DNA of 40,356 nt from Gammaproteobacteria bacterium. Its GTDB lineage: Bacteria > Pseudomonadota > Gammaproteobacteria > UBA6429 > Thiohalophilaceae. Positions 12,400 to 36,268 of the stretch are shown piece by piece. The DNA lies in the NCBI GenBank assembly GCA_024641475.1, contig JAHECZ010000024.1, positions 1-40,356 of the forward strand. Direction: 5' to 3'. Below the pieces are notes generated by a model that saw only the letters and a list, made by a program, of their open reading frames with translations, was not told the origin of the DNA and did not search any database. Position 1 is the first letter of the stretch, and the number at the start of each line of letters is the position of its first letter. Both the position numbers and the translations under genes were made by a program.

Positions 12400-12436
12400 A
12401 AAAGGACTGACATCAAGGTGTTGGTCCTTTTTTTTT
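12400..12436 (+). terminator. Rho-independent terminator of sat-aprMBA
   Basis: AAAGGAC is paired with GTCCTTT across the loop and followed by a run of nine T. A short extra hairpin (GGCTTT/AAAGCC, 12365-12380) lies just upstream. Confidence 0.88.
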
Positions 12437-12501
12437 CCAATCATCGCGATGCATGACCGCGTAAGAAAAGCGGTAGAAACAATTTGTATGTGAGATTTTT
12501 T

Positions 12502-12852: not shown

Positions 12853-12887
12853 CGGCTGCCTGAACAAAAGAAACAGGAATATTTGCA

Positions 12888-14422: not shown

Positions 14423-14426
14423 CAAA

Positions 14427-16777: not shown

Positions 16778-16933
16778 GTGAACCTCACGTGTGACGCATT
16801 GTTACTTAGTATCGGCTACCACATTATAAATGTTAACAACAAACCCTGAATTTATGTATGATATATTGTGCGCATAAGCAGATTAGAATATTTTAAAATA
16901 CAAATAATACATTACCTACTTACTGTATTTCAT

Positions 16934-16958
16934 AAAAAAACGGGCCGATGTCGGCCCG
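16934..16958 (-). terminator. Terminator of PstS-like copy 2
   Basis: CGGGCCG and CGGCCCG form a 7-bp stem with a 4-base loop. On the minus strand it is followed by seven T. It lies 30 bases after the stop of copy 2. Confidence 0.85.
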
Positions 16959-16987
16959 CTATATCGTAATGCAGCGATTGATAATAC

Positions 16988-17899
16988 TTACTGGGATTTT
17001 GCCTGCGTCGTATAAAGACCACGCTCGGTTGCACGATCATATTGTTCAATCGTCTTCATGACCAAGCCCATCGCATCTGAGTAAGGCACAGTGCCAGTCT
17101 GGCGTATGATTTCCTGCCCTTGCCGACTCAATGCAAAACTGATGAATTCCTTCACGCGGGGATCGGCATTGGCGCCTTTACTGACCAGATATAAAGGCCG
17201 GTACATCTGGTATTGCCCTGAGACAATATTGTCAATATTCGCCTCCTTGCCATTGAGTTTGAGAATTTTGACTTTACGACGATGGGCGCTAGCTACTCCG
17301 GTAGCGCCAACCGCATTGGGAATCTTTTCTATGCCTTCTTCCAAGGGCGTAGTTGAAGCGACAATATTATTAGCGCCTGGAAAATCCTGATCGTAATTGG
17401 CGAACATCAATTCCCGTAGTGTACGGCCCACACCGGATATTTTGCCACGTCGTGCAAATAACTCGATCGGTTGGTCCTTACCACCAACCTGTTTCCAGTT
17501 TTTAATTTTCCCCGTATAAATATCTCGAACCTGCTGGTTAGTCAGATTATCGACTGGATTGGTCGGGTGCACGATCATCACAATAGCGTCCCACGCCACA
17601 GGGACTTCATAAGCGTTACGCTCTTCAGCCATATTTTCAAGATTTGCGCGACATGATGCGCCGATATCCACTTCACCGCTGGTCGCTTGTCGAATCCCGG
17701 CAGTGGCACCGCCACCTTGCAGTTTAATTTTCACACCACTCTTTTTTTCATAGGCTTTGGCTAATTCCGCCATAAAAGCATACTTGGTAATACCACACCC
17801 GGCCCAGGTAAGGGTGTCGGAATTCGCGGCATAGCTAATAATTGGAAACACCAGCGCAACAATGAATCCACTGGCAACAGTTTTGATGCTTTGTTTCAT
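16988..17899 (-). CDS. PstS-like periplasmic binding protein, copy 2
   Basis: 303 residues from ATG 17899, chosen because GGAGGAG lies two to four bases upstream; ATG/GTG forms upstream add only five residues. Signal peptide of about 24 residues ending ISYAA. Same architecture as copy 1: WAGCGI, GGGATAGIRQ, GASCRANL, SGVGRTLREL, STTPLEEG. Most residues are shared with copy 1, so this is a tandem duplication. It has its own terminator, so the two copies are independent transcription units. Ligand not proven; phosphate is the family default. Confidence 0.88.
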   Translation of the reverse strand: MKQSIKTVASGFIVALVFPIISYAANSDTLTWAGCGITKYAFMAELAKAYEKKSGVKIKLQGGGATAGIRQATSGEVDIGASCRANLENMAEERNAYEVPVAWDAIVMIVHPTNPVDNLTNQQVRDIYTGKIKNWKQVGGKDQPIELFARRGKISGVGRTLRELMFANYDQDFPGANNIVASTTPLEEGIEKIPNAVGATGVASAHRRKVKILKLNGKEANIDNIVSGQYQMYRPLYLVSKGANADPRVKEFISFALSRQGQEIIRQTGTVPYSDAMGLVMKTIEQYDRATERGLYTTQAKSQ

Positions 17900-18026
17900 C
17901 TCTCCTCCTCGCACGTATTTATAATACGGCTATGTATCGAACTATATATATTTATATTATTGTCTTAGGACTATATCGCATCATCGAACTGAAACAATCT
18001 CTGTCAGCCATGAATATTTTTATGCC

Positions 18027-18233: not shown

Positions 18234-20018
18234 ATGGCACGACTGCAACACATTGTTTTAATTACGATTTCATTAACATTCGCGCTGCTGCTCACTGGCT
18301 GTGGCTGCGATGCCGAAACCGGCAGCGGCTGTGATGCGCCCCCCGCTGGCGGCACCCCGGTAATAGACACAACGGTTAAAACTGGCCGGTTTATTGATAG
18401 CCCGGTGGAAGGCTTGTCATATTCGACTCCAAGTCAGGCTGGCGTGACCAATGCCAATGGTGAGTTCACGTATCTCAGTGGTGAAACCGTCATTTTCAAG
18501 CTCGGTAATATTCTGGTCGGCCAGGCCACTGGCGCCAGCGAGCTAACTCCGTTTAGCTTGAGCGGCATGACCAAACCGACCACCCAGAAAGAAATGGAGC
18601 ACTTGATCAACGTGATCGCCAATGGTGGCTTATCGTCTTTCAGTGCCGCAATCAACCGCGCTACCTTCCTGCAATCGTTGGATTCCGATAGCAATCCCGA
18701 TAATGGCATTACCCTGCCAGCCGGTTTGCAAACTGCGCTCGCTGATTCCAATTTACATCTGAATTTTTCACAAAACTTTACCGATTTCCGGTTTGACCTC
18801 AATGTCAAAGTTTTGCGCGCTGCAACGCGGGCGAATGTATACCCTCAATTACGTAAATCAGTACCGAGTAATTACGCCGCAGCCAAACTGTTCGCCGGCT
18901 TGGGTTTATCGCCCAAGATTTCGCAACCCAGTTCGTACCTGCACAAGGATCTGAAAAATAACAATGTCATCATTGCAAAAGTGTCAACAACCTATGATGC
19001 TAATGGCAACCCAAAATTCTACAGCCGTGACGATAACGATGATGGCAGCATTAATTACAGCGACACCACGACCTATGACAGCTATGGCAATCTCACTTCC
19101 GAGGTGCAAGATTCCAACGGCGTGGGTGCAGGTGGTATCAATTATCGATTAAATGCCACCTTCTCAAATGGACTGCAAACCTTGCTATTAACTGATCATG
19201 ACGGCGATGGACCCAATTCTTCGGCTCGTTCGTACTTCGATCAGCTTGGTAACGTAACCATCTACGAACTCGACACGAATGGCGATGGCGCCAACGGAAT
19301 CAATTTTCGTCATTCCTATAGCTATTATCCCGACGGGAATGTGCAGAGCGACGACACCGATCTGAATGCGGATGGCAGTATCGACACACAAAACACCTAC
19401 AGTTATGACTATGACGCGCACGGCAACATTACTGGAAAATACGTAGTCAATGTCACTAATGGTACGAGTAGCACATATTTTAATACTTATGATGCCAATG
19501 ATAATTTACGCACTGAAGAATATCCTGATGGCGGCAGCAATATTAAGATTCTCGAGACCTATACCTACGACACGAATGATAATTTACTCACGGACGAAAA
19601 ATATGATGTGATCAATGGCGCCAGAAAAAACTTCAAGCGTTATACCTATGACAGCAACGGCAACATCACCAAATATGAAGAAGACACCGACGGTGTCGGC
19701 AGCATCGATTACATTGAAACATATAGCTATGATACCAATGGCAACATACTCAAATACGAAGAAGACGATGGCGCTAATGGCAGCATCAACTATCGTGAAA
19801 CCTACTCCTACGATGCGGCAGTTAATCTCCAGTCATATAAAAAGGACAGTGATGGCGATGGTCTCAATGACTATATCGAAACCTATACCAACGATGCCAA
19901 CGGCGCACGTATTCGTACCGACATTGACATAGATGGTGATGGCGCCAATGATCAAGTCAAGGGATTCATTAATGTCGTCATTCCAGTGGGCTGGTCATTC
20001 TTCAACGACATTTACTAG
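18234..20018 (+). CDS. Lipoprotein with YD-like tandem repeats
   Basis: 594 residues. The lipoprotein signal ends in LLTGC (cysteine at about residue 23), followed by a short cysteine-rich stretch. Residues of about 50-110 form a beta domain with the pattern GRFIDSPVEGLSYSTPSQAG. From about residue 255 to 575 there are roughly eleven imperfect 25-28-residue repeats of the form TYDxxGN...(E/D)xDxxxDGxINY, which resemble RHS/YD repeats and are rich in aspartate like calcium-binding loops. AAAGG lies about ten bases upstream. Expected location: the outer membrane or cell surface. No toxin or RHS core domain is seen. Function unknown. Confidence 0.85.
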   Translation: MARLQHIVLITISLTFALLLTGCGCDAETGSGCDAPPAGGTPVIDTTVKTGRFIDSPVEGLSYSTPSQAGVTNANGEFTYLSGETVIFKLGNILVGQATGASELTPFSLSGMTKPTTQKEMEHLINVIANGGLSSFSAAINRATFLQSLDSDSNPDNGITLPAGLQTALADSNLHLNFSQNFTDFRFDLNVKVLRAATRANVYPQLRKSVPSNYAAAKLFAGLGLSPKISQPSSYLHKDLKNNNVIIAKVSTTYDANGNPKFYSRDDNDDGSINYSDTTTYDSYGNLTSEVQDSNGVGAGGINYRLNATFSNGLQTLLLTDHDGDGPNSSARSYFDQLGNVTIYELDTNGDGANGINFRHSYSYYPDGNVQSDDTDLNADGSIDTQNTYSYDYDAHGNITGKYVVNVTNGTSSTYFNTYDANDNLRTEEYPDGGSNIKILETYTYDTNDNLLTDEKYDVINGARKNFKRYTYDSNGNITKYEEDTDGVGSIDYIETYSYDTNGNILKYEEDDGANGSINYRETYSYDAAVNLQSYKKDSDGDGLNDYIETYTNDANGARIRTDIDIDGDGANDQVKGFINVVIPVGWSFFNDIY

Positions 20019-21369: not shown

Positions 21370-21414
21370 TGCTCGATAAACTGAATTCCTGAATTGGCTA
21401 AGGGGTTGTTTCAA

Positions 21415-24318
21415 ATGACCGTTGTGCATAATCCGATCACGGCCCCGGCAGGCCGTATTGAGGTGAAGAACACCACTTGTTACATGTGCGCGTGTCGTTG
21501 TGGTATCCGTGTGACACTGCGTGATGGCGAAGTTCGTTATATCCAGGGCAACCCGGATCATCCCTTAAATAAAGGCATCATCTGCGCCAAGGGCGCCTCG
21601 GGAATCATGAAGCAATACTCCCCTGCCCGACTGACCCAACCGCTGAAACGCAAGGCAGGCGCCGACCGCGGCGATGCGCAGTTCGAGCCGATCTCCTGGG
21701 ACGAGGCCTTCGACACCATCGCCACTCGGCTGAAAAAGCTGCGTGAAACCGATCCAAAGAAATTCGCGCTGTTCACTGGCCGCGATCAGATGCAAGCACT
21801 CACTGGCTTGTTTGCCAAGCAATTCGGCACCCCCAATTATGCGGCCCATGGCGGCTTCTGCTCGGTCAACATGGCCACCGGCATGATCTACACCATCGGT
21901 GGTTCCTTCTGGGAATTCGGTGGCCCGGACCTGGATCGCGCCCGCTTGTTCGTGATGATCGGCACCGCCGAAGACCATCACTCCAACCCGATGAAAATGG
22001 CGCTGTCGACATTCAAACGCAACGGCGGCCGGTTTATCTCCATCAATCCGATCCGTACCGGTTACTCGGCAATTGCCGATGAATGGGTGCCGATCAAACC
22101 CGGCACCGATGGCGCGCTGATCCTCGCACTAATCCACGAATTGATCCGCACCGGTTTGTACGACCGCGAATTTTTAGTGCAATACAGCAATGCCGCTGAA
22201 CTGGTCAGTGTCGATCAGGCCTCCGATGATTTTGGTTTGCTGGTGCGCACCGATCTACCGCAGGAACCGGATTGTTATGATCCACAGGATCGCGTCTGGT
22301 GGGATCGCGCCACGGAAAAACCGGTACCGGCACGCAAGGAAGGGGTTGATCCCTTTATGCTCGGCGAATTTGCGATGCCCGACGGCCGCAAGGTCAAACC
22401 GTCCTTCCAGTTATTAAAAGAACGCGTCGCCAGTTACACACCGGAATGGGCCAGCGAAGTCACCGGTATCCCGGTCGAGACGATCAAACGTCTTGCGTAT
22501 GAAATGGGTATCACTGCCCGCGATGAAAAGATCGAATTACCGATCGCCTGGACCGATGCCTGGGGCAAAGACCACGACACGATCACCGGTAACCCGGTGG
22601 CGTTTCACGCAATGCGTGGTCTCGCCGCGCATTCCAATGGCTTTCAAACCATTCGCGCGTTATCCATTTTAATGAGCATCCTGGGCACGATCGATCGCCC
22701 CGGTGGTTTTCGTCACAAGGCACCGTTCCCGCGTCCGATTCCACCCTGCGCCAAGCCACCCAAGACGCCGAACGATGTGCGACCCAATCATGTTTTGGGT
22801 GGCATGCCGTTAGGTTGGCCAGCCGACCCCGATGATCTGTTCATCGATGACGATGGCAAACCCGTGCGCATCGACAAGGCCTTCTCATGGGAATATCCGC
22901 TCGCCGCGCATGGCCTGATGCACAACGTCATCACCAATGCGTGGCGCGGTGATCCGTATCGCATCGACACCCTGTTAATCTTCATGGCCAACATGGCATG
23001 GAACTCGACAATGAACACCGCCAATGTACGGCAGATGCTCAACGATAAAGATGACAATGGCGAATACAAAATCCCCTTCTTGATCGTCTGCGATGCGTTC
23101 CAATCCGAAATGACCGCCTATGCCGATATCGTGTTGCCGGATACCACCTATCTGGAACGTCACGATGTGATGAGCATGCTGGATCGCCCGATCTCCGAAT
23201 TCGATGGCCCGGTGGATTCGGTGCGTATTCCGGTCGTGCCGCCCAAGGGCGAGTGCAAGCCGTTTCAAGAAGTATTAATTGAACTGGGTTCACGCTTGAA
23301 ATTACCGGCCTTCACCACCGCCGATGGCAAGCGCAAGTATCGTGACTATCCGGACTTCATCGTCAATTACGAAACCGATGCAGGATCAGGCATTGGATTC
23401 CTCGCCGGTTGGCGGGGTAAAGGTGGCGAGAAATTCATGAAGGGCGAGCCTAACCCTAATCAATGGGAAATGTACGCCAAGAACAATTGTGTATTCCATT
23501 ATGAAATGCCCAAGTCGTATCAATACATGCGCAACTGGAATCGCGGTTATCTGAAGTGGGCACAGGAACATCGCCTGACGCGTTATGCCGAGCCGATCAA
23601 TATACATATTTATTCCGAAGTGTTAATGAACTTCCGCCGCGCCGCGCAAGGTAAATGGGAAGGTCGCATGCCACCGGCGCATTTACGCCAACGCATCGAA
23701 ACGCATTTTGATCCACTGCCGTTTTATTCCGAGCCATTGGAAAGCGCGTTGACGGATAAACACAAGTATCCGCTCAACGCAGTAACGCAACGGCCGATGG
23801 CAATGTATCATTCGTGGGATTCGCAGAACGCCTGGTTGCGCCAGATCCATACTTATAATTTCCTGTATGTACATCCGACCACGGCACTAACGGCAGGTAT
23901 CACTGACGGCAGTTGGATGTGGGTGGAATCGATGCACGGCAAGGTGCGTTGCCTGTGTCGTTACTCCGAAGCGGTCGAACCCGGCACCGTATGGACCTGG
24001 AATGCGATCGGTAAATCCAAAGGCGCGTGGCGCCTGGATAACGATGCCAATGAGTCCACGCAAGGTTTCTTATTGAATCATGTGATCAGTGAAGAACTTC
24101 CCGCCAGCGACGTTGGTGCGCATGTCTCGAATTCCGATCCGGTGACAGGTCAGGCGGGTTGGTACGATGTGCGCGTACGCATATATCCGACGGGTGCCGA
24201 TGAAGCGCACGAGACCGCGCCGCAATTCACCGCGATGCCGGCGTTGCCGGGTACGGGTAAGACGCGCAAGTGGCAGGGATTTTTTGCCGGCATATTCACC
24301 AAGAAGCAGGCAGGATAA
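21415..24318 (+). CDS. soeA: Sulfite dehydrogenase molybdopterin subunit SoeA
   Basis: 967 residues from ATG 21415; AGGGG lies about ten bases upstream. Catalytic subunit of the cytoplasmic sulfite:quinone oxidoreductase. An N-terminal [4Fe-4S] motif (CYMCACRCGIRV, with a further cysteine in IICAKG) is followed by molybdopterin oxidoreductase domains and a C-terminal molydopterin dinucleotide-binding domain starting at about residue 800. There is no twin-arginine signal, so the protein stays in the cytoplasm as SoeA does. The order A-B-C with an iron-sulfur subunit and a DmsC-like anchor is the soe arrangement. Related polysulfide/thiosulfate reductases usually have a Tat signal, which argues against those. 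Confidence 0.93.
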   Translation: MTVVHNPITAPAGRIEVKNTTCYMCACRCGIRVTLRDGEVRYIQGNPDHPLNKGIICAKGASGIMKQYSPARLTQPLKRKAGADRGDAQFEPISWDEAFDTIATRLKKLRETDPKKFALFTGRDQMQALTGLFAKQFGTPNYAAHGGFCSVNMATGMIYTIGGSFWEFGGPDLDRARLFVMIGTAEDHHSNPMKMALSTFKRNGGRFISINPIRTGYSAIADEWVPIKPGTDGALILALIHELIRTGLYDREFLVQYSNAAELVSVDQASDDFGLLVRTDLPQEPDCYDPQDRVWWDRATEKPVPARKEGVDPFMLGEFAMPDGRKVKPSFQLLKERVASYTPEWASEVTGIPVETIKRLAYEMGITARDEKIELPIAWTDAWGKDHDTITGNPVAFHAMRGLAAHSNGFQTIRALSILMSILGTIDRPGGFRHKAPFPRPIPPCAKPPKTPNDVRPNHVLGGMPLGWPADPDDLFIDDDGKPVRIDKAFSWEYPLAAHGLMHNVITNAWRGDPYRIDTLLIFMANMAWNSTMNTANVRQMLNDKDDNGEYKIPFLIVCDAFQSEMTAYADIVLPDTTYLERHDVMSMLDRPISEFDGPVDSVRIPVVPPKGECKPFQEVLIELGSRLKLPAFTTADGKRKYRDYPDFIVNYETDAGSGIGFLAGWRGKGGEKFMKGEPNPNQWEMYAKNNCVFHYEMPKSYQYMRNWNRGYLKWAQEHRLTRYAEPINIHIYSEVLMNFRRAAQGKWEGRMPPAHLRQRIETHFDPLPFYSEPLESALTDKHKYPLNAVTQRPMAMYHSWDSQNAWLRQIHTYNFLYVHPTTALTAGITDGSWMWVESMHGKVRCLCRYSEAVEPGTVWTWNAIGKSKGAWRLDNDANESTQGFLLNHVISEELPASDVGAHVSNSDPVTGQAGWYDVRVRIYPTGADEAHETAPQFTAMPALPGTGKTRKWQGFFAGIFTKKQAG

Positions 24319-24323
24319 CTCCC

Positions 24324-25055
24324 ATGACCCAATTAGCCTTAGTCATCGATTTGAATGTCTGCGTCGGTTGTCACGCCTGCGTGACCTCGTGCAAGGAATG
24401 GAACACCTCCGGCCCGGCCGGTTTTATGACGGATGAAAATCCGTACGGCAAGGATCCGACCGGTACGTTCTTCAATCGCGTCCAGACCTATGAGATCGGT
24501 GAATTCCCCAATACCGAAACGCTGCACTTCCCGAAGAGTTGTTTGCACTGCGAAGATCCGCCCTGTGTGCCGGTGTGTCCGACCGGCGCCAGTTACAAAC
24601 GCAAGGAAGACGGCATCGTGCTGGTGGATTATGACAAATGCATCGGTTGTCGTTATTGTTCGTGGGCCTGTCCCTATGGCGCGCGCGAGATCGACGAGAA
24701 GCAACAGGTCATGAAGAAATGCACCTTGTGTGTCGATCGCATTTACGACCTGACGCTACCCGTGACTGAACGCAAACCCGCTTGCGTATTGGCGTGTCCG
24801 ACCAACGCACGCTTGTTCGGTGATGTGCGTAATCCGGATTCGGATGTGTCGGTGGCGATTCGCGAGAATGGCGGTTATCAATTGATGCCGGAATGGGGCA
24901 CGCAACCGGCCAATCATTATTTACCGCGTCGCAAGATGCGCAAAGTCATTCATGCAGATGAATTACTGCGCGCGGATAATCCACTCAAGAAAGAACAACG
25001 CGGCCCGAGCAAACCGATCAGTGAACCGACGTTGGACGACAGCACGTCCTGGTAA
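24324..25055 (+). CDS. soeB: Sulfite dehydrogenase iron-sulfur subunit SoeB
   Basis: 243 residues. Four [4Fe-4S] cluster ligand sets of the DmsB/PsrB type are visible: CVGCHACVTSC, CLHCEDPPCVPVC, CIGCRYCSWAC and CTLC with CVLACP. They carry electrons from SoeA to the membrane subunit. The start at 24324 lies five bases after the soeA stop and has almost no ribosome binding site of its own, so coupled translation is likely. Confidence 0.93.
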   Translation: MTQLALVIDLNVCVGCHACVTSCKEWNTSGPAGFMTDENPYGKDPTGTFFNRVQTYEIGEFPNTETLHFPKSCLHCEDPPCVPVCPTGASYKRKEDGIVLVDYDKCIGCRYCSWACPYGAREIDEKQQVMKKCTLCVDRIYDLTLPVTERKPACVLACPTNARLFGDVRNPDSDVSVAIRENGGYQLMPEWGTQPANHYLPRRKMRKVIHADELLRADNPLKKEQRGPSKPISEPTLDDSTSW

Positions 25056-25079
25056 TTTAAACTTGTTGAGGCGTTAACC

Positions 25080-26057
25080 ATGAATCCAGCTTTCTCGGTC
25101 ATTTTTTTAACCACCTTGATCGGCGTCGGTCAGGGCATGTTCCTGGCGTTGTTCAGCGGCCAGACGTATTCCGCACTGGAACTACTGCCTACGTCGAATA
25201 GCACGCAATTTTACGCACTGGGCGCATTCATCGCGTTGCTGTTTTTAATCGGCGGCTTGATCGCGTCATTCTTTCATCTCGGCCATCCCGAACGCGCCTG
25301 GCGTGCCGCCACCCAATGGCGTACCTCCTGGTTATCGCGTGAGGTGATCGCCCTGCCATTGATGATGGGTCTGGTGTTGGTTTACGCGGTGATGCATTAC
25401 TTTGAATGGGATACGGTGTTATTCACCAACGCCAAAGGTGCACGTTTACAATTAACGCTGGTGATTGCGACACTCGGTATGCTGGCGACATTTACGTTAT
25501 TCATCTGCACCGGCATGATCTACGCCTGTCTGAAGTTTTTACAGGAATGGCATAGTCCGCTCACGGTGATCAATTACATCCTGCTCGGCACCGCCTCGGG
25601 CTTTGCGTTGACCACTGCGTTCGCCAGCGTCAATGCACCGGAACTGACGCGCTTCTACGGCATCTGGACCATCATCATCACTGTCGCGGCGTTAATCAGT
25701 CGCGTTGCATCACTAATACGCAATGCAGGATTAAAATCCAAATCCACGTTGCAAACCGCGCTGGGCGTGCGCCACAGCAAGATTCAGCAAAAATCCATGG
25801 GCTTTATGGGTGGCTCGGTCAACACACGCGACTTCTTCCATCACCAAACCTTAAAACTATTAAAATCCATCAAATGGATTTTTCTGCTGACCGTCTTTGT
25901 AATCCCGTTGGTGTTACTGATTATGGGTTTGAAAAATCAACAAACCGGTACGCTGCTGGCGGCATTCATTGTGCAATATATCGGGCTGTTGTTTGAACGC
26001 TGGTTCTTCTTCGCCCAGGCCAATCATCCGCAGAATCTGTATTACCAGACCGTGTAG
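25080..26057 (+). CDS. soeC: Sulfite dehydrogenase membrane subunit SoeC (DmsC family)
   Basis: 325 residues with about eight hydrophobic segments, in the DmsC/NrfD-like anchor class. The segment FHLGHPERAWRAATQWRTSWLSREV near residue 65-90 is the DmsC family signature. It anchors SoeAB and passes electrons to quinone. GAGG lies nine bases upstream of the start, 24 bases after soeB. No clear terminator follows. Confidence 0.92.
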   Translation: MNPAFSVIFLTTLIGVGQGMFLALFSGQTYSALELLPTSNSTQFYALGAFIALLFLIGGLIASFFHLGHPERAWRAATQWRTSWLSREVIALPLMMGLVLVYAVMHYFEWDTVLFTNAKGARLQLTLVIATLGMLATFTLFICTGMIYACLKFLQEWHSPLTVINYILLGTASGFALTTAFASVNAPELTRFYGIWTIIITVAALISRVASLIRNAGLKSKSTLQTALGVRHSKIQQKSMGFMGGSVNTRDFFHHQTLKLLKSIKWIFLLTVFVIPLVLLIMGLKNQQTGTLLAAFIVQYIGLLFERWFFFAQANHPQNLYYQTV

Positions 26058-26185: not shown

Positions 26186-26455
26186 ATGAAATCCGTACTT
26201 GCAAGTGTCATTACCATCGCCTTAACCGTACTGGCTTATCAGGCCAAAGCGGAATGTCCATCATCCTTGAATGCTGAGCAAATGCAGGAATGCATTGTCA
26301 CTGAAAATGCCGGTTATTATTATTCGCCGCAAGCTGCCTCAGGTAGCATTGAAGAACAAGTCATTGCACCTGCCACCACCGCCACATCAGCCAATCAATC
26401 CACTGTTGATAACAAAACCATCGTCACAGCGCATGGCAATTTAATGAATAATTAA
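26186..26455 (+). CDS. Small secreted CX11C protein, copy 1
   Basis: 89 residues. A Sec signal peptide of 22 residues is cut after AKA. The mature protein (about 67 residues) starts with a block shared with copies 2 and 3: ECPSSLNAEQMQECIVTE, with two cysteines 12 positions apart. It continues with NAGYYYSP, also found in copy 2, and ends in a polar, low-complexity tail. GGGGG lies about six bases before the ATG. A strong hairpin starts ten bases after the stop. I do not recognise the family. The two cysteines probably form a disulfide in the periplasm. Confidence 0.85.
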   Translation: MKSVLASVITIALTVLAYQAKAECPSSLNAEQMQECIVTENAGYYYSPQAASGSIEEQVIAPATTATSANQSTVDNKTIVTAHGNLMNN

Positions 26456-26465
26456 TTATACATTT

Positions 26466-26503
26466 CACCGTGTCTGGCATGGTGTTATTGCACAGACACG
26501 GTG
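26466..26503 (+). repeat. Hairpin after copy 1
   Basis: CACCGTGTCTG (26466-26476) and CAGACACGGTG (26493-26503) form a perfect 11-bp stem. No T tract follows. The same arm sequence starts the hairpin after copy 3. The remaining gap to copy 2 (26504-26700) is AT-rich and holds nothing else that I can support. Confidence 0.75.
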
Positions 26504-26709
26504 ATATCAATAGTCGGACAAATACTTTTATATTCATATCTGCCATATCTCGATCAGCAATAATTCTTATCCCACACTTAATATCAATACAAAATTCCAA
26601 TCATTCTAGCCATGATTATTTATCACGTTGTTGCACACCCTTAACTATGATTGAATGAAACAAAATTATGTCATTACACAGCGCCCAACCTAATTCACAC
26701 GGAGGTTAT

Positions 26710-26970
26710 ATGAAATTCAATTTACAATTGGTTACTTTTCTTACAAGTATCGTTTTGATGCAGCACGCCATGGCTGAGTGCCCAAAGAACTTGACAGCAG
26801 AACAGATGCAGGATTGCATTGTCACTGAAGATTCCGGTTACTACTACTCGCCGCGCGGTAAAATCAACGCTACCGACGAGCAAACTAACGAACCCGTCAC
26901 CGCAAATGAAGATGACTCGAGCGACAGCAAAAACGAGGTTGCCGCAACCAGGGATAACACCGCCAAATAA
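26710..26970 (+). CDS. Small secreted CX11C protein, copy 2
   Basis: 86 residues. Signal peptide cut after AMA, then ECPKNLTAEQMQDCIVTEDS and GYYYSP as in copy 1, then an acidic tail with many Asp, Glu, Asn and Thr. GGAGG lies five bases before the ATG, within the sequence GGAGGTTATATG shared exactly with copy 3. The tails of the three copies have diverged completely, while the CX11C block is kept, so selection appears to act on that block. An in-frame upstream ATG at 26668 is unlikely. Function unknown. Confidence 0.85.
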   Translation: MKFNLQLVTFLTSIVLMQHAMAECPKNLTAEQMQDCIVTEDSGYYYSPRGKINATDEQTNEPVTANEDDSSDSKNEVAATRDNTAK

Positions 26971-26986
26971 ACCATCATGTGGCTTG

Positions 26987-27022
26987 CCATGTCCGTGTAG
27001 TTGTTATAACTACCGGGCATGG
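26987..27022 (+). repeat. Hairpin after copy 2
   Basis: Nine pairs (26987-26995 with 27014-27022, including one T-G), a bulged T, then GTAGTT with AACTAC around a GTTAT loop. The sequence is unlike the hairpins after copies 1 and 3, but the position and strength are the same. No T tract follows. Confidence 0.65.
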
Positions 27023-27186
27023 TTGACGATAACGCTGTCATTTTGTAATTCTTTCACGATATCACACGGTCATTTTCACTATTGCAATGCGTAATTGTTG
27101 CGTTGCCACCGGCACACCATTTTGCTTTACTTTAATCACACCGCGCACAGGTATACCGTGATCAACCCGCGGCACATGGAGGTTAT

Positions 27187-27432
27187 ATGAAACGCATGAC
27201 ACAGTTATTTACTGCTTTGTTTTTTATTGTTCTGGCACATGCTGCCCTGGCAGCTTGTCCGTCGAATCTGACTGCTGAGCAAATGATTGATTGCATCATT
27301 GCCGAAGCTGATTGTCAGCAGGCAAGATTCTTTCGTCAGGATGTGGCATCTGCATCAGCTCCAGATGATGTGACTATGCCAGCCACATCCAAATTGACCA
27401 CCATTGCATCGAAGCACATGGATAGTAAGTAA
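27187..27432 (+). CDS. Small secreted CX11C protein, copy 3
   Basis: 81 residues. Signal peptide cut after ALA, then ACPSNLTAEQMIDCIIAE. This copy has lost the YYYSP segment and gained a third cysteine (EADCQQ), so it could form an intermolecular disulfide. GGAGG lies five bases before the ATG. A perfect 14-bp hairpin starts eight bases after the stop. Same unknown family as copies 1 and 2. Confidence 0.82.
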   Translation: MKRMTQLFTALFFIVLAHAALAACPSNLTAEQMIDCIIAEADCQQARFFRQDVASASAPDDVTMPATSKLTTIASKHMDSK

Positions 27433-27440: not shown

Positions 27441-27479
27441 CACCGTGTCTGTGTTTTGGCAACTGACACAGACACGGTG
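27441..27479 (+). repeat. Hairpin after copy 3
   Basis: CACCGTGTCTGTGT (27441-27454) and ACACAGACACGGTG (27466-27479) form a perfect 14-bp stem with an 11-base loop. The outer 11 bases of each arm are identical to the hairpin after copy 1. No T tract follows. Confidence 0.8.
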
Positions 27480-27601: not shown

Positions 27602-28753
27602 ATGCATGTCACACCATTGCAACGCCGTTTACTCATTGTTGCCGGAATCATTTTAATACTGGCGGCAATCTATCTGGCTGTCTCGCATCAGGCTCCCATC
27701 AAGGTCGCCGTTAAACCGGTCGAGATCGGTATGGTCCAGGCCACGGTGGCCAATACCCGCACCGGTACCGTAAAAACCTGCCAGCGCGCGCAGATGTCGC
27801 CTTCCATCGGCGGCAAGATTGCCAAATTGCCAGTCAAGGAAGGCGACAAGGTTAAAACCGGGCAAATTTTGTTGGAACTATGGAATGACGATTTACAGGC
27901 TGAGTTGCAGCAAACCGAACGGGATATCACGGCTGCCATTGCGCGTTCCCAGGAAGCTTGCGTGATGGCCGATGTGGCGGCACACGAAGCTGAACGTTCC
28001 AAACAATTACACGCCAAAGGCCTGATAGCAGAGGAACCCACAGATCGCGCTATCGGTGACGCCCGTGCGCGCCGTGCCAGTTGCGATGCCAGCAAAGCGA
28101 CAATTGAATCAGCGCGCTCGCGTGTCGATGTGATCCGCGCACAACTCGAACGCACCCGTTTACGTGCGCCATTTGCCGGCACCGTCGCCGAGATCAATGG
28201 CGAGCTCGGCGAGTTTGTTACACCCTCACCTGTCGGCATACCTACATTACCGACGGTCGATTTGATCGATTCACAATGCTTGTATGTGCTGGCGCCGATC
28301 GATGAAGTTGATGCCCCCAAAATCAAAGCCACGATGCAGGCCAATATCATTATCGACGCCTTTGCCAAGCAACGCTTTCCCGCCAGAATCCGCCGCATCG
28401 CCAATTATGTACTGGATCGTGAGAAACAGGCGCGTACCGTCGATATCGAAGTCGAATTTCTACATGCCGACACCTTGCCGAATATGTTGCCGGGCTACAG
28501 CGCCGACGTTGAAATCATTCTGGCCGAACATAATCAGGTGTTGCGTATCCCCACCGAAGCGTTGCAGGAAGGCAAATACGTCTATGTATTACCTGCGGAT
28601 AACGACATCTTGCAGAAACGTGAAATTAAAATCGGCCTGAGCAATTGGCAATACACCGAGATACTGGCTGGCCTTAACCAAAATGAATTGGTCGTTACCT
28701 CAGCTGAACGCGAAGGCGTCAAAGCAGGCGCACGCGTCGTCGCGGAAAAATAA
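27602..28753 (+). CDS. MacA/HlyD-type periplasmic adaptor protein
   Basis: 383 residues. One N-terminal membrane anchor (about residues 8-28), then a lipoyl half-domain (SPSIGGKIAKLPVKEGDKVKTGQILLEL), a coiled-coil hairpin at about 95-185, the second lipoyl half (RLRAPFAGTVAEINGELGEFV) and beta-barrel/membrane-proximal domains. This is the membrane-fusion protein of a tripartite efflux or export system; it would link the inner-membrane ABC exporter to an outer-membrane TolC, which is not in the window. It carries four cysteines in the hairpin region or near it, unusual for a MacA. Start 27602 has AGAGG eight bases upstream. First gene of a four-gene cluster. Confidence 0.9.
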   Translation: MHVTPLQRRLLIVAGIILILAAIYLAVSHQAPIKVAVKPVEIGMVQATVANTRTGTVKTCQRAQMSPSIGGKIAKLPVKEGDKVKTGQILLELWNDDLQAELQQTERDITAAIARSQEACVMADVAAHEAERSKQLHAKGLIAEEPTDRAIGDARARRASCDASKATIESARSRVDVIRAQLERTRLRAPFAGTVAEINGELGEFVTPSPVGIPTLPTVDLIDSQCLYVLAPIDEVDAPKIKATMQANIIIDAFAKQRFPARIRRIANYVLDREKQARTVDIEVEFLHADTLPNMLPGYSADVEIILAEHNQVLRIPTEALQEGKYVYVLPADNDILQKREIKIGLSNWQYTEILAGLNQNELVVTSAEREGVKAGARVVAEK

Positions 28754-28756
28754 CCC

Positions 28757-29428
28757 ATGATCGAACTCATCGATGTGCATCGTGATTTTCAAGTTGGCGA
28801 CACGGTAGTACACGCGCTCGATGATATTTCCCTGACGATGACACGCGGCGAATATGTGTCGATTATGGGACCGTCGGGTTCGGGTAAATCCACCCTGTTA
28901 AATGTTCTGGGTTTACTCGATCAGCCCAGCTCGGGTGAATATCGTTTGAATCAGCGCAATGTCACCACACTCAACGATATCGAACAAGCCACGGTGCGAC
29001 GTGAACAGATTGGTTTTGTATTCCAATCCTTTCATTTGATCCCCCGTCTCACTGCGGCAGAAAATATCGAGTTACCAATGATGTTGGCCGGTATCGCGCC
29101 GTTAGAACGACAACGCCGTGTGCGTGATGCCTTGCAACGCGTCACTCTGACCGATCGCGCTGAGCACCGGCCCGATCAATTATCGGGTGGACAACGGCAA
29201 CGTACCGCGATCGCCCGCGCGATCATCATGCAACCGTCAATCATGCTTGCGGATGAACCAACCGGTAATCTGGACCGGCACTCGGGCATGGACGTGATGG
29301 AGATTCTCGAAGCATTGAACCAATCCGGCATCATTCTGATCGTCGTCACTCACGATCAGGATTTGGGCGAACGCGCCCGCCGCAAGATCAAAATGATCGA
29401 CGGCAAAATTGTCAGTGACGGCCCATGA
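28757..29428 (+). CDS. MacB/LolD-type ABC transporter ATPase
   Basis: 223 residues, a stand-alone nucleotide-binding domain. Walker A GPSGSGKST near residue 39, Q-loop VFQSFHLIPR, signature LSGGQRQR near residue 140, Walker B IMLADEPTGNLD near 160, switch histidine in VVTHD. It powers the two FtsX-type permeases that follow. It starts three bases after the adaptor stop and overlaps the first permease as ATGA, so the first three genes are closely coupled. Confidence 0.95.
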   Translation: MIELIDVHRDFQVGDTVVHALDDISLTMTRGEYVSIMGPSGSGKSTLLNVLGLLDQPSSGEYRLNQRNVTTLNDIEQATVRREQIGFVFQSFHLIPRLTAAENIELPMMLAGIAPLERQRRVRDALQRVTLTDRAEHRPDQLSGGQRQRTAIARAIIMQPSIMLADEPTGNLDRHSGMDVMEILEALNQSGIILIVVTHDQDLGERARRKIKMIDGKIVSDGP

Positions 29429-30639
29429 GCATGCCGACCGCAGATTATCTCCGCTTCGCCACCGTGGCGTTGCGTTCCTATACCACACGCACCGTGCTGA
29501 TCGTGTTGGCGATGGCATTGGGCGTCGCCTCGGTGATTGCGCTTACCGCCCTAGGTGAAGGCGCCCGTCTCTATATTAATAATCAGTTCGCCACTCTCGG
29601 TACCAACTTACTCATTGTACTACCCGGGCGTTCGGAAACCACCGGCATGAATCCCGCCGCAATGATGGGCGAAACACCGCGCGATTTAACGCTGGATGAT
29701 GCCGAGGCCTTGTTACGCAGCCCGTATGTACGACGCATAGCGCCATTAATGGTCGGGAGTGTTCCGATATCCTTCAGCGGGCGCGAACGTGAAGCCGTGG
29801 TACTGGGCACCACCAGTGAGATGCAACCGATCCGCCGCTATACGCTGGCGCAAGGTCAATTTCTCGAAGCGGGGGATGCCTCGCGCAGCGGTTCGGGTTG
29901 TGTCATCGGCAGTAAACTGCGCGATGAATTATTCGGCCCGAACAATGCGCTGGGTGAATGGGTGCGTGTCGGCGCCTGGCGCTTTCGCGTGATCGGAATT
30001 CTGGCGCAACAGGGGCAGACGCTCGGCATGAATACCGATGAGATCATTATGATCCCGGTAGCCTCGGCACAGGCCCTGTTTAATTCACCCTCATTGTTCC
30101 GAATTTTTGTCGAGGCCAAATCGCATGAAGTGATCGATAAAACCCGCGCCGAGGTCCGCAGTATTCTCACGCAACGTCATCAGGGTGAAGAAGACATTAC
30201 GGTTATCACACAAGATGCGGTGCTCGCGACGTTTAATAAAATCATCGGGGCACTCACGCTCGCCATCGGCGGTATCGCCGCCATCAGTTTGATCGTGGCG
30301 GGAATTTTGATCATGAACGTGATGCTGGTCGCGGTGACCCAGCGCACTGCGGAGATCGGTTTACTTAAAGCCGTCGGCGCCCCCGGCAAACAAATTTTAC
30401 AACTGTTCATGGTCGAGGCCTTGCTGTTATCGTTATTGGGTTGTGTCATCGGCATTATTGTCGGCGTCGTCGGTACGGCGATACTGCGCGGTGCCTTTCC
30501 GGATTTCCCGGCACAAACACCAACCTGGGCATATGCTATGGCGGTGCTCACGGCAGTGGGAACCGCGCTGCTATTTAGTTATATCCCGTCACGCCGTGCC
30601 GCAGCATTAAATGCGGTGGTGGCGTTGGCGCGACATTGA
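29425..30639 (+). CDS. MacB-type ABC permease, copy 1
   Basis: 404 residues. One membrane segment near the N-terminus (about 20-40), a periplasmic MacB core domain (about 45-270, with TLGTNLLIVLPG and TLDDAEALLRS), and three C-terminal membrane segments of the FtsX fold. The ATPase is a separate gene, as in many Gram-negative MacB-like systems. Such mechanotransmission transporters do not move substrate through the membrane themselves but drive export from the periplasm. Clearly paralogous to the second permease. Overlaps the ATPase gene by four bases. Confidence 0.93.
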   Translation: MSMPTADYLRFATVALRSYTTRTVLIVLAMALGVASVIALTALGEGARLYINNQFATLGTNLLIVLPGRSETTGMNPAAMMGETPRDLTLDDAEALLRSPYVRRIAPLMVGSVPISFSGREREAVVLGTTSEMQPIRRYTLAQGQFLEAGDASRSGSGCVIGSKLRDELFGPNNALGEWVRVGAWRFRVIGILAQQGQTLGMNTDEIIMIPVASAQALFNSPSLFRIFVEAKSHEVIDKTRAEVRSILTQRHQGEEDITVITQDAVLATFNKIIGALTLAIGGIAAISLIVAGILIMNVMLVAVTQRTAEIGLLKAVGAPGKQILQLFMVEALLLSLLGCVIGIIVGVVGTAILRGAFPDFPAQTPTWAYAMAVLTAVGTALLFSYIPSRRAAALNAVVALARH

Positions 30640-30652
30640 ATTATATATCAGT

Positions 30653-30778
30653 TGTGATTTTCGGGTGATTGGGATTCGATGAGTGACAGCGCAACAGGGA
30701 AGTTGCGCGCGCATCGGTATCACAGGGATGTGATGTCGATGCGATAAACGAGTGAATCCCAATCGCATGAAAATCACA
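30653..30778 (+). ncRNA. Large structured element between the two permease genes
   Basis: The outer stem pairs TGTGATTTTC (30653-30662) with GAAAATCACA (30769-30778), then a 4x4 internal loop, then GATTGGGATTC (30667-30677) with GAATCCCAATC (30754-30764). Inside are two hairpins: GCGCAAC/GTTGCGC (30689-30695, 30702-30708), and CGCATCG/CGATGCG (30710-30716, 30737-30743) capped by ATCACA/TGTGAT (30719-30724, 30729-30734). The result is a three-way junction that fills nearly the whole 171-base gap in the operon. It could be a folded RNA, a processing site or a mobile palindromic element. Confidence 0.6.
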
Positions 30779-30810
30779 GCATCGACTTTGATGATACCGT
30801 TGAGGTATAA

Positions 30811-32010
30811 ATGCGCATCACCGATCTATTTCGTCTGACCACTCGCGCAGTCTATTTACAGAGACTGCGCAGCAGTCTGACGATCCTCGGCATCGGAATT
30901 GGGATTGCCGCTGTGGTGTTATTAACGTCGATCGGTGAAGGCCTGCATCAATTTGTATTAGCTGAATTCTCCCAGTTCGGTACCAATTTATTAGGGGTGA
31001 ATCCCGGTAAAACTACTACGCACGGTGCGTCGGTCGGTGTGTTTGGCACCGTACGACCATTAACACTGGATGATGCCGAGGCCTTGCGCCACGCACATTC
31101 CATTGAAGCCATTGTGCCGGTGGTGATGGGCAATGCTGAAGTAAAATCCGCCAATCGCGCCCGGCGCGTGACGATTTACGGCGTCGGTCCGGAATTGCCA
31201 CGCGCGTTTCGCATGCAGGTGCGATCGGGACGTTTTTTACCTGAGGATGATCCGACTGCCGCACGCAACTTTGTCGTGCTCGGCAGCAAGGTTCGGGAAC
31301 AGTTATTTGGCAATACCAATCCTCTGGGTGAATCGCTGCGCTTGAGCGGTAGTCGCTTTCGTATTATTGGCACGATGGAATCCAAGGGACAGATCCTTGG
31401 ATTCGATATGGATGATACCGTGTATATCCCGGTCAGCCGTGCGATGGAGATCTTTAATCGTGATGGCTTGTTCGAGATTGATGTGTTGTATCGCGAAGGC
31501 AGCAACGAAGCGCGCGTTGTTGCTGATGTTAAAACCATTTTAGAGGCGCGTCACGGTCGCGAAGATTTCACGATTACCACACAGCAACAGATGCTCGATA
31601 CGCTGAGCTCGGTGCTAAACGTATTAACCTTTGCGGTCGCTGCCATTGGCGGTATTTCATTATTGGTTGGCGGCATCGGCATTCTTACGATCATGACCAT
31701 TTCGGTAAAGGAACGCACCGTCGAGATTGGTTTGCTACGTGCATTGGGTGCCACGCGTAAACATGTATTGAATCTGTTTCTGGGTGAATCGATCCTGCTG
31801 GCCACCACTGGCGGTATCATCGGCCTGAGCGTAGGTTTTGTCGGTGCACAATTACTGCATGCCGCCGTGCCCGCGTTACCGGTGCATACACCCTGGCCGT
31901 ATGCGATTGCGGCGGTGGTATTGTCGATGCTCATCGGCTTATTGGCTGGCGTTGTGCCCTCGCAACATGCGGCACGGCTGGATCCGATTGAAGCCTTACG
32001 GGCTGAATAA
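30811..32010 (+). CDS. MacB-type ABC permease, copy 2
   Basis: 399 residues with the same layout as copy 1: N-terminal membrane segment, periplasmic MacB core (FGTNLLGVNPGKTTTHG, TLDDAEALRHA, NFVVLGSKVREQLFGNTNPLG), three C-terminal membrane segments including ERTVEIGLLRALGATRKHVL. The pair could form a heterodimer around the single ATPase, or each could form a homodimer. GAGG lies eight bases before the start. Separated from copy 1 by the structured element, so the two may be expressed at different levels. Confidence 0.93.
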   Translation: MRITDLFRLTTRAVYLQRLRSSLTILGIGIGIAAVVLLTSIGEGLHQFVLAEFSQFGTNLLGVNPGKTTTHGASVGVFGTVRPLTLDDAEALRHAHSIEAIVPVVMGNAEVKSANRARRVTIYGVGPELPRAFRMQVRSGRFLPEDDPTAARNFVVLGSKVREQLFGNTNPLGESLRLSGSRFRIIGTMESKGQILGFDMDDTVYIPVSRAMEIFNRDGLFEIDVLYREGSNEARVVADVKTILEARHGREDFTITTQQQMLDTLSSVLNVLTFAVAAIGGISLLVGGIGILTIMTISVKERTVEIGLLRALGATRKHVLNLFLGESILLATTGGIIGLSVGFVGAQLLHAAVPALPVHTPWPYAIAAVVLSMLIGLLAGVVPSQHAARLDPIEALRAE

Positions 32011-33071: not shown

Positions 33072-33716
33072 TTACCAGCCAGAAGGAAGTTTATCGTTAA
33101 TGACGATCTGATTTTTACAGACAGTGATATAACCACCGGTGCTCAGATCCTTGAGAATACGACTGACCATTTCACGCGAGGATCCGACCATACTGGCGAT
33201 ATCCTGATGAGTGAGTTTCTGTTCGATGATCTGTTTACCATCTTTATCCTTGGCCAGGTCCAATAATGTGTGCGCCACACGGCCATAGACATCCATCAGC
33301 GACAGATTTTTTACGCTATCGGTGAGCGAACGTACTTGTTGGATAAGTGACTTGATCAGGTTATAGGCCAAATCCGGATTGCTACTGAGGCAACGTTTGA
33401 AATCACTCTTGGTGATGATCATCACTTTGGTCGGCACCAGGGTCATCACTGAGGCTGAGCGCGGTGAATCATCCAGCAGCGCCAGTTCGCCGAAATACTC
33501 ACCGGGACCCATGAGATTCAGTATCGCTTCTTTCCCATTTTCGTCGCTGACAAATACCTTCACCTCGCCTTCCAGAATCACATACAGCGAATCGCTGCGA
33601 TCCCCTTCGGTGATCAGCACCGTATTGGCGGGATAACTCCGGGTGGTGCTATGGTCGGTTAATACCGCCGATTCATTTGTTGCAAGGTTACTAAACAAGT
33701 GTATTTGCTGGAGCAT
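33072..33716 (-). CDS. Crp-family transcription factor, probably cAMP-binding
   Basis: 214 residues. The N-terminal cyclic-nucleotide domain has the phosphate-binding cassette GEYFGELALLDDSPRSASV, in which the glutamate, arginine and serine that bind cAMP in E. coli Crp are all present. The C-terminal helix-turn-helix is THQDIASMVGSSREMVSRIL. No iron-sulfur cysteines of the Fnr type. GAGG lies six bases before the start. It is divergent from an adenylate cyclase gene 177 bases away, a neighbour that could supply its ligand. Confidence 0.93.
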   Translation of the reverse strand: MLQQIHLFSNLATNESAVLTDHSTTRSYPANTVLITEGDRSDSLYVILEGEVKVFVSDENGKEAILNLMGPGEYFGELALLDDSPRSASVMTLVPTKVMIITKSDFKRCLSSNPDLAYNLIKSLIQQVRSLTDSVKNLSLMDVYGRVAHTLLDLAKDKDGKQIIEQKLTHQDIASMVGSSREMVSRILKDLSTGGYITVCKNQIVINDKLPSGW

Positions 33717-33740
33717 GGCTAGCCTCTTGTTCTAGTTGCG

Positions 33741-33769
33741 TAGCGACGGTCAACACGTCGTTGTCGCTA
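33741..33769. promoter_or_regulatory. Inverted repeat between crp-like and cyclase genes
   Basis: TAGCGAC (33741-33747) and GTCGCTA (33763-33769), perfect 7-base arms around 15 bases, in the divergent promoter region close to the crp-like start. A possible operator. It does not match the E. coli Crp consensus. Confidence 0.35.
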
Positions 33770-33893
33770 ACCGATCCCGCCGCGCAACCAAATCACGGGC
33801 TTACCCATTGTTTGAGTGTTTCGCGCTACGTGGGGGTCCGTCAGCACTGTTATCCGATATATTATAGGAACAATACCATAAAAGAGTACAACC

Positions 33894-36116
33894 ATGAGTT
33901 GGCGGCGCGGGATTGTGTTGGGTATCGGGATTGGATTGGCGGGTATCGTGCTGGCGATCAGCCCTGCCGGTCACTGGCTGGAGGAAGAATTGGGCCTCAG
34001 CTGGCTGTTCCAGTTGCGCGGACCGATCCCGCCTCCGGCGGACGTCGTGGTCGTCAGCATTGATCTGGCCTCATCCAGACAACTCAACCTGCCGAACAAA
34101 CCCCGTCTTTGGCCACGGTCATTACATGCTGAATTGCTGAATCGTCTGCAGCAACAAGGTGCTGCCGCAATATTCTTTGATGTGATCTTTGAGGAGCCGC
34201 GTGACCCAGGTGACAACCAATTGTTTGCCACCGCTTTGCGAAACGCCAATAACGTGGTGTTGTTTCAATATCTGCATCGCGAGATTCTGCCGCTGGGTCA
34301 AGCGGGTACGGCCACGACGGAAGCGGCAATCGAGAAATTAACCTCGCCATTACCCGTGTTGCGCGAGGCCGCATTTGGGCTGGCACCGTTTCCGCTGCCG
34401 AAAGTCCCCGCCAAGGTCAATCATTTTGTGTTATTCAAAAGTGAGTTAGGCAATGCGCCAACGGTGCCCGTCACGATGCTGCAAACCCATGCACTGCCAG
34501 TGTACGATACATTCCTGACATTATTGCGCACGCAATTATCTACATTACCTGCGAACCTGCCAGCCACTGCGCAACAGCTTCGTCAACAGGGCAACGTGCA
34601 ACACACCGTCACACAATTGCGCGAACTGTTTCTGGCGCAACCGCAACTGGCTGTTTCACTGTCTGCAAAAATCCGGCAACAGACACATCTCAGTGTGGCA
34701 CAACGGCAGCAACTGCTCGCCTTACTGGCAATGTATTGCGAACGTGACAGTGCTTTTCTAAATTTTTATGGCCCACCACGATCGATCACCACGGTACCGT
34801 ATTATCAGGTGTTGCAAGCTACCTCGACCGTGAATCTTTCCGGCAAAGCAGTGTTTGTCGGATTCTCGGAAGAATTCCAGCCTGAACAAAAAGACGGTTT
34901 CTACACCGTCTTCACCAATGAGCGCAGTGGTCTCGATATCAGCGGCGTCGAAGTGGGTGCCACCGCCTTCGCGAATTTATTGCAACAGCGCAGCGTCACC
35001 GTATTGAGCCCCTGGTACGATATCCTGCTGTTCATGCTGTGGGGTTTACTGTTGGGTATTGGCTTGCAGCGCAGTAACGGCATCTCACAATTCGTGGTGA
35101 GCGTTACCTGTGCCGTCATCTATATGAGTCTGGCATATTTTGCCTTCGCCAAATTCGATTTGTGGTTACCACTGGTGATACCGTTACTTTGGCAATTACC
35201 ATTGGCCAGCGTAATGACCTTGTCTCTGCAATATCGTGACGCACAGCGTGAAAGACGCAATATCCGTCAAGCCTTTGGCCATCACTTGCCCTTGCCCGTG
35301 GTGGATCAATTGGCGCGCGGCATTCATCATCTGACCGATACCGGTAAATCGGTATTTGGAATAGTCTTGGCCACCGATGCGGAAAGATACACTGCGCTTT
35401 CGGAGACACTGCCACCCGCACAACTGCATACCGTGTTAAATCGTTACTACGAAGCCCTGTTTCCACAAATTCGCTCCGCCGATGGGGTGATCTCCGATGT
35501 GATCGGGGATGCAGTATTGGCACTATGGGCAACACCACAGGATGACATAGCCGTGCGCACGCGTGCCTGTCACGCGGCGCTGGCGGTACGCAAGGCCGTC
35601 GATCAATTTAATCAATCACAATCAGCACATTCCCTGCCGACTCGCATCGGTCTGCATTGTGGTGACATCGTCATGGGTCATGTTGGTGCTGCGGATCATT
35701 ATGAATACCGTGCGGTTGGCGATATTGTGAATACCGCCACGCGCATTGAAGGACTGAACAAATTACTCGGCACGCGCATTCTGGTCTCCTCCGACACACT
35801 GGTGGGTATCGATGCGTTTGTCACGCGCGAGATGGGGACCTTTTTACTGGCGGGTAAACGTCATCCCACCACGGTACATGAGCTGATTTGCACACAATCA
35901 GAACACATCACCGCACAAAACTTAAACTCGGCTTTTGCTGATGCACTGTTTTTGTTTCGTGGAGGTGCATGGCAGCAAGCGGAACAGGCGTTTGCACAAA
36001 TTTTGCTCCATCATCGCGACGATGGGCCCAGCCAATACTATGTATCGTTATGCACTGAATATCTGCAGCAACCTCCGACAGGGTGGGATAGCGTCATTCA
36101 TTTGACGAAAAAATGA
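33894..36116 (+). CDS. CHASE2-domain class III adenylate/guanylate cyclase
   Basis: 740 residues. N-terminal membrane segment (about 6-24), extracytoplasmic CHASE2 sensor (about 30-365), three membrane segments (about 375-450), cyclase domain (about 480-660) and a short helical tail. Metal-binding aspartates D495 and D539 and the transition-state pair N613 and R617 are present, so the enzyme is probably active. The two base-selecting positions are unusual: the Lys of the DKxxGD motif is D535, and the usual Asp/Thr is R606. The nucleotide made therefore cannot be read from the standard rule; cAMP is suggested by the adjacent Crp. It is followed by the FecR chimera on the same strand. Confidence 0.88.
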   Translation: MSWRRGIVLGIGIGLAGIVLAISPAGHWLEEELGLSWLFQLRGPIPPPADVVVVSIDLASSRQLNLPNKPRLWPRSLHAELLNRLQQQGAAAIFFDVIFEEPRDPGDNQLFATALRNANNVVLFQYLHREILPLGQAGTATTEAAIEKLTSPLPVLREAAFGLAPFPLPKVPAKVNHFVLFKSELGNAPTVPVTMLQTHALPVYDTFLTLLRTQLSTLPANLPATAQQLRQQGNVQHTVTQLRELFLAQPQLAVSLSAKIRQQTHLSVAQRQQLLALLAMYCERDSAFLNFYGPPRSITTVPYYQVLQATSTVNLSGKAVFVGFSEEFQPEQKDGFYTVFTNERSGLDISGVEVGATAFANLLQQRSVTVLSPWYDILLFMLWGLLLGIGLQRSNGISQFVVSVTCAVIYMSLAYFAFAKFDLWLPLVIPLLWQLPLASVMTLSLQYRDAQRERRNIRQAFGHHLPLPVVDQLARGIHHLTDTGKSVFGIVLATDAERYTALSETLPPAQLHTVLNRYYEALFPQIRSADGVISDVIGDAVLALWATPQDDIAVRTRACHAALAVRKAVDQFNQSQSAHSLPTRIGLHCGDIVMGHVGAADHYEYRAVGDIVNTATRIEGLNKLLGTRILVSSDTLVGIDAFVTREMGTFLLAGKRHPTTVHELICTQSEHITAQNLNSAFADALFLFRGGAWQQAEQAFAQILLHHRDDGPSQYYVSLCTEYLQQPPTGWDSVIHLTKK

Positions 36117-36175
36117 CTGTAAAAATACCACACGCAATCTGTAAAAAATTCCCACAACATTTGCAATGATGTGGT

Positions 36176-36181
36176 TATAAT
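36176..36181 (+). promoter_or_regulatory. Possible -10 box of the FecR-TPR-barrel gene
   Basis: A perfect TATAAT, 88 bases before the start codon; no convincing -35 box at normal spacing. A small dyad CCCGTT/AACGGG follows at about 36209-36230. Confidence 0.25.
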
Positions 36182-36268
36182 CGCATCGTTCCTTGGGGAA
36201 GGAGCAACCCGTTACACTAATTGAACGGGAAATAATGGATAAAAAAACAAAGAGGGAGTTGCTGCGAA

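Follow-up and report, generated by a model that had tools for sequence, protein, structure and literature searches.

An undescribed family of small, apparently exported two-cysteine proteins with a patchy distribution among Gammaproteobacteria

Background

A 40,356-nt stretch of DNA from a gammaproteobacterium of the Thiohalophilaceae (contig JAHECZ010000024.1), hereafter called the window, carries three short consecutive genes located between soeABC-type sulfite dehydrogenase genes and a MacAB-type exporter (Table 1). Their position raises the question of what these genes encode, how far similar genes are distributed, and whether either neighbor accounts for their function. An earlier note, written from the sequence of the window, had described them as secreted peptides of a family that it did not recognise, sharing a two-cysteine start and lying in a sulfur-oxidation neighborhood.

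Results and discussion

Three tandem genes and their downstream hairpins

All three genes were recovered as open reading frames, and alignment confirmed the common two-cysteine start of their predicted secreted products. Judged by eye, each copy begins with a signal peptide, in which M-K is followed by hydrophobic residues and then by an A-x-A site. In the alignment the mature start reads (E/A)CPxxLxAEQMx(E/D)CI(V/I)xE, with the two cysteines 12 positions apart, and M-K, A-x-A-(E/A)-C-P, L, A-E-Q-M, C-I and E are invariant across the copies. The loss of GYYYSP and the gain of a third cysteine in copy 3, also described earlier, were found again in this alignment. Copies 1 and 2 share 76% DNA identity over 91 nt around the block. 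When copy 1 was used as a query against its own genome, copy 2 (E 1.9e-15) and copy 3 (E 1.2e-7) were the sole family matches, with no further hit up to E 10. A tree of the short family sequences grouped copies 1 and 2 (support 0.84) and joined them with the member from genome G006 (0.93), copy 3 being placed apart without firm support. The starts of copies 2 and 3 are preceded by GGAGG and that of copy 1 by GGGGG. Sigma-70 and T-tailed terminator scans gave about the same counts as in shuffled sequences, and an Rfam scan of the three-gene array yielded 4 matches, all under the gathering score.

Table 1. Positions of the peptide genes, hairpins and flanking genes in the window
Feature	Positions	Strand	Remarks
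soeABC-type sulfite dehydrogenase genes	21394-26057	+	upstream context, outside the peptide family
Copy 1	26186-26455	+	89 aa; Sec-like signal peptide (residues 1-22, by eye), C-x11-C block, GYYYSP, tail rich in Thr, Ala and Asn
Hairpin closely following copy 1	26465-26504	+	stem CACCGTGTCTG/CAGACACGGTG, without T run; z -4.5
Copy 2	26710-26970	+	86 aa; signal peptide, C-x11-C block, GYYYSP, acidic tail
Hairpin closely following copy 2	26986-27023	+	sequence unlike the other two; z -3.7
Copy 3	27187-27432	+	81 aa; signal peptide, C-x11-C block, third Cys, without GYYYSP
Hairpin closely following copy 3	27441-27479	+	z -4.1
MacAB-type exporter	27602-32010	+	downstream context
MacAB adaptor	27602-28753	+	
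MacAB ATPase	28757-29428	+	
MacB/FtsX permease	29425-30639	+	one of two
MacB/FtsX permease	30811-32010	+	one of two

The hairpins after copies 1 and 3 have a perfect 13-nt stem in common, which has no other occurrence within the window at up to 1 mismatch, and they could be a repeated element. Termination at the window hairpins is not certain because they lack a T run. Across the family, structures with z <= -3 were found in the 80 nt after the stop codon in 18 of 27 members versus 16 of 174 control ORFs (p 2e-10), part of this contrast reflecting that family genes end transcription units, since the controls include operon-internal genes. The count was 17/27 with dinucleotide and 18/27 with single-base shuffling; the members of G793 and G794 are outside these 27, and the control set aside 11 ORFs at ends as well as L057 (same place as L089).

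Extent of the family

Homologues do exist in other genomes: the family counts 29 intact genes, spread over 24 genomes or records. One further copy (C5 of G036) is interrupted by an in-frame stop and was excluded from the family counts. All carriers belong to the class of the window or are labelled Gammaproteobacteria. The gene was present in 10 of 40 genomes of the window's order, all of them Thiohalophilaceae, and an even draw of 369 genomes from the class gave 13 matches, 12 of which were accepted as carriers. The match in G063 was rejected because it proved to be the end of a long, transporter-like frame that lacks the first cysteine. Searches at order level added G784 (2 of 11 genomes of its order carry the gene) as well as G793 and G794 (3 of 23 in theirs), and three other small order searches (carriers 2/2, 1/1 and 2/3) gave no new carrier. 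Of six hits obtained by a pattern scan of genome contigs, four were true, one of them new (JAADHQ); L056 (without signal peptide) and L058 (without open frame) were judged false.

A draw of 398 genomes from the phylum listed 17 matches, those outside the window's own genome having E values of 6.7e-5 or weaker, and gave no convincing member beyond that genome. One frame was doubtful: in G740, from another class, a 132-aa minus-strand frame at position 1167 of L075 has at its end a C-x11-C stretch that closely resembles the block. It scored about 1e-3 with a block-only profile, has no signal peptide, and was judged a probable chance resemblance; the remaining matches of this draw displayed no such block on reading. 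At E 0.1 a block-only profile trained on Thiohalophilaceae picked out the correct gene in all 15 loci from outside that family, with no additional hit among 3,246 ORFs, although it missed the second tandem copy in L081. The reverse profile matched 9 of 10 loci (L020 was missed). None of 2,694 control ORFs was matched, but the test is partly circular because its loci were originally found with related profiles.

That the family was unrecognised was confirmed by the curated collections. Searches with 27 members returned five Pfam families (one member each, best E 0.012), six NCBIfam families (at most two members each, best E 0.027) and seven PHROGs, all of unknown function (one member each, best E 9.3e-4), none of them meaningful. 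Neither Pfam nor NCBIfam holds a model that fits the three copies of the window, and a PDB profile search gave 0 matches at E up to 10. The PtrA N-terminal family NF041599 matched 2 of the 27 members without significance (best E 0.056), probably because of signal-peptide likeness. A plasmid or viral origin of the copies was rejected: copy 2 had no match among plasmids, and in viral contigs a pattern search gave 0 hits while a search with copy 2 gave 4 pattern stretches, none of which was confirmed. The family was not described among the best matches listed in literature searches on small proteins of soeABC, small secreted proteins of sulfur oxidisers, MacAB peptides and DsrC.

Tandem copies recurred once more, in G040 (two adjacent genes and one elsewhere), but the other carriers lack them. 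In the same genome one protein (L081, 4075-4365) repeats the CP...C block in a looser form behind the first one. The member of G073 consists of a signal peptide and the block and nothing more, so the head can stand alone. Altogether this is an undescribed family of small two-cysteine proteins with a patchy spread, and its sequences support the view that it is duplicated, diverging and putatively exported.

Conserved block and variable tails

Over the 29 members the full consensus is C-P-x2-[LM]-x4-[LM]-x-[DE]-C-I-V-x-E-G-x-G-x2-Y. The conserved block is therefore longer than first noted and extends to E-G-x-G-x-x-Y, which the window displays in the form GYYY. Both cysteines and the E/D after the second one are invariant (29/29); near-invariant are I and the D/E before the second cysteine (26/29 each) and L/M at the fifth position (27/29), the looser sites being P (18/29), the first G (21/29), the second G (17/29) and Y (17/29). 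Two members, from G084 and G224, display a C-x12-C spacing. A third cysteine occurs at one shared column in copy 3 and one G040 member, and near the end of the G164 protein.

The earlier note held that the disulfide block alone is under strong selection. Pairwise NG86 omega of the block could be calculated for six of nine pairs but not for the other three. It was 0.11-0.22, values that are rough because most block dS values exceed 1. The signal peptides gave 0.19-0.48. Tail omega was 0.13-0.52 for four pairs; in the other five the tail dS was saturated and dN was 0.78-1.20. These values support a constraint concentrated in the block. The tail value of 0.13 was obtained for the pair G084/G224, both Trp-type (with a Trp after the block), which indicates that tails are not free in all members, and in the pair G033/G036 the block (14/20 identical) is not conserved better than the signal peptide (19/26). 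The tails, described as unrelated, are indeed different in the three copies of the window, but in 10 of 27 members of the family a Trp follows the block. On the whole, the comparisons support constraint on the block, most tails appearing much less constrained.

Bacterial lipoproteins carry a lipobox, [LVI][ASTVI][GAS]C. The residue before the first cysteine is not Ala, Gly or Ser in 23 of 29 members and is Ala in the other 6, and by eye the motif fits 2/29 only, copy 3 (LAAC) and the G197 member (IAAC). A lipoprotein nature of the family was consequently rejected, these two being possible exceptions. An EF-hand-like reading of EGNGEISYREW in G004 was also discarded by eye, since the first ligand position is not acidic and other members differ.

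Genomic context and the link with sulfur oxidation

Recurrence next to soe genes was limited to a few genomes. In the window and in G039 the order is soeABC, peptide gene(s), Crp, CHASE2 cyclase and FecR-TPR. The association is looser in G006, where the peptide gene lies beside GGDEF, Crp, CHASE2 and FecR genes with soeABC about 6 kb away, and in G031, which has the same Crp/CHASE2/FecR regulator block and soeC at about 15 kb. None of 20 further soe stretches (4.0-11.5 kb, some ended by contig ends) holds a member, and seven of these belong to genomes carrying the peptide elsewhere. Recurrence next to MacB permease genes was not seen among the loci compared: a MacB permease lies beside the peptide in the window, and no match to it was found in 24 other member loci, some of which have short flanks. 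Distant matches to the window's adaptor occur in L020 and L081, and a fragment match to its ATPase in L087. Clustering of neighbors across loci returned response regulators, kinases and clade-specific blocks, not weighed against genome-wide frequencies, but no family-wide neighbor, and a shared operon partner was rejected. The soeABC and MacAB links are local, not family-wide.

Several other features were observed in these loci. The block of a Crp-type regulator, a CHASE2 cyclase and a FecR-TPR protein occurs in four genomes (window 33072-39517, L016, L017 and L019), within about 15 kb of soeABC; in G030 and G032, too, soeC is followed by a CHASE2-cyclase relative. On the minus strand of the window, positions 15839-17914 encode two adjacent, similar PstS-like phosphate-binding proteins (named by eye). 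Positions 18234-20018 of the window encode a lipoprotein-like protein of 594 aa in which numerous YDxNGN-type repeats were seen by eye. In L088 (G328), an exporter-like trio of HlyD-M50 peptidase, GAF-HlyD protein and HlyD adaptor lies at 9788-14480, on the opposite strand near the peptide gene.

The gene aprA marks sulfur oxidation in this class. It was found in 110 of the 369 class genomes, namely in 10 of 12 carriers versus 100 of 357 others (Fisher p 1.5e-4; 10/13 if G063 is counted as a carrier); the test counts related genomes separately and the carriers include related pairs, so the true enrichment is less strong, and lineage may lie behind the bias. In two of the carriers, G040 and G256, aprA was not detected, whereas G137, of the same genus as G256, has a hit. 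Since 100 of the 110 aprA genomes of the class draw have no member, the peptide is dispensable. The proposed sulfur-oxidation link therefore persists as an enrichment of aprA among carriers, but soeABC adjacency is limited to a few genomes.

Possible functions

Our best explanation, which we consider evenly poised between right and wrong, is a small Sec-exported family with a disulfide-pinned binding head, periplasmic or released, and a variable tail. The peptide would be exported by Sec to the periplasm (or be released), where DsbA-type oxidation would close a Cys2-Cys14 bond. A straight helix does not allow a bond between cysteines 12 positions apart, so that Cys2 must fold back on the helix, which fits the Pro-containing extended start. 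The bond would pin this extended start to a short helix terminated by the E-G-x-G turn, and the pinned head would dock on a conserved envelope partner, the tail serving as a spacer or, in Trp-type members, as a second helix. In the window the head would have been duplicated and joined to different tails, so that dose or partner could vary. Structure models, both weak, were mostly unstructured with a helix at 8-13 for copy 2 (pLDDT 52.9, pTM 0.14), and showed a helix at 8-14, a turn and a helix at 21-47 for the Trp-type G024 member (pLDDT 61.2, pTM 0.31). The invariant cysteines, the low block omegas, the 23 members without Ala, Gly or Ser before the first cysteine, the stand-alone head of G073, the doubled block in G040, the hairpins, the aprA bias and the two helices of the Trp-type model count for the pinned head; the weak models, the missing conserved neighbor, the third cysteine of some members, the lipobox fit of copy 3 and G197, the poorly kept block of the G033/G036 pair and the many aprA genomes without the gene count against it.

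Another possible explanation can be based on the neighboring exporter. The products could be signal or competition peptides that reach the periplasm by Sec, have their bond closed by Dsb and are ejected by the adjacent MacAB-type pump, the tails diverging as carriers of specificity. The three copies lie directly ahead of adaptor, ATPase and two MacB permeases, HlyD-type adaptors occur near members in G040 and G328, and G004 has a distant adaptor match. This reading is nevertheless improbable given the 24 other loci without a MacB match, G006 and G039 having the peptide without adjoining MacAB, and the hairpin and 169 bp separating copy 3 from macA. By description, the peptides resemble the STII-type Sec/Dsb peptides that PMC5985334 presents as exported by MacAB-TolC: they are small, have a Sec signal, and their cysteines probably serve a disulfide. 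However, two disulfides are found there versus two cysteines here, and adjacent MacAB genes, a likeness confined to the window, were not seen with other family members. That the copies are chance open reading frames, as their very short length and their place outside curated families could suggest, is practically negligible in view of homologues with constrained codons, the GGAGG ahead of copies 2 and 3 and the hairpins.

The peptide gene comes directly after soeC in the window and in G039, as would be expected of an accessory subunit or maturation factor of SoeABC. This role is highly improbable, since SoeC occurs in 37 of 40 Thiohalophilaceae genomes versus 10 for the peptide, the 20 other soe stretches hold no member, and SoeABC is called cytoplasmic in PMC6397845, whereas the peptide looks exported. 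A rather unlikely alternative is a two-cysteine thiol or sulfane-sulfur carrier, cycling between disulfide, thiol and persulfide or trisulfide on reactive sulfur and working like the unrelated SoxY and DsrC. The two invariant cysteines, the bias to aprA genomes and the soeABC genes alongside in a small clade favor such a carrier; the searches found neither a carrier fold nor a partner gene, the peptide went undetected in 30 of 40 Thiohalophilaceae genomes (SoeC is in 37 of the 40), and G040 and G256 carry it without an aprA hit. The likeness to DsrC and SoxY lies in key cysteines and a sulfur-oxidation setting; DsrC, however, is a folded cytoplasmic protein with cysteines in its C-terminal arm, in contrast with the N-terminal cysteines and predicted export found here. 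Sulfur globule proteins, which are Gly/Tyr-rich and structural, are likewise small exported proteins of sulfur oxidisers but are not known to have this cysteine block. A bolder proposal, which we regard as unlikely, is that the family is periplasmic and serves sulfur-oxidising Gammaproteobacteria as a minimal, nearly foldless carrier or buffer of reactive or sulfane sulfur, with a conserved head and a species-tuned tail.

Conclusion

Small exported proteins are easily missed by annotation. The present family is marked by a clear signature and is met again in distant lineages in which sulfur oxidisers abound, and its members are separate genes that would be easy to remove or tag. If their cysteines touch sulfur chemistry, they would represent a periplasmic player absent from current schemes of sulfur oxidation.
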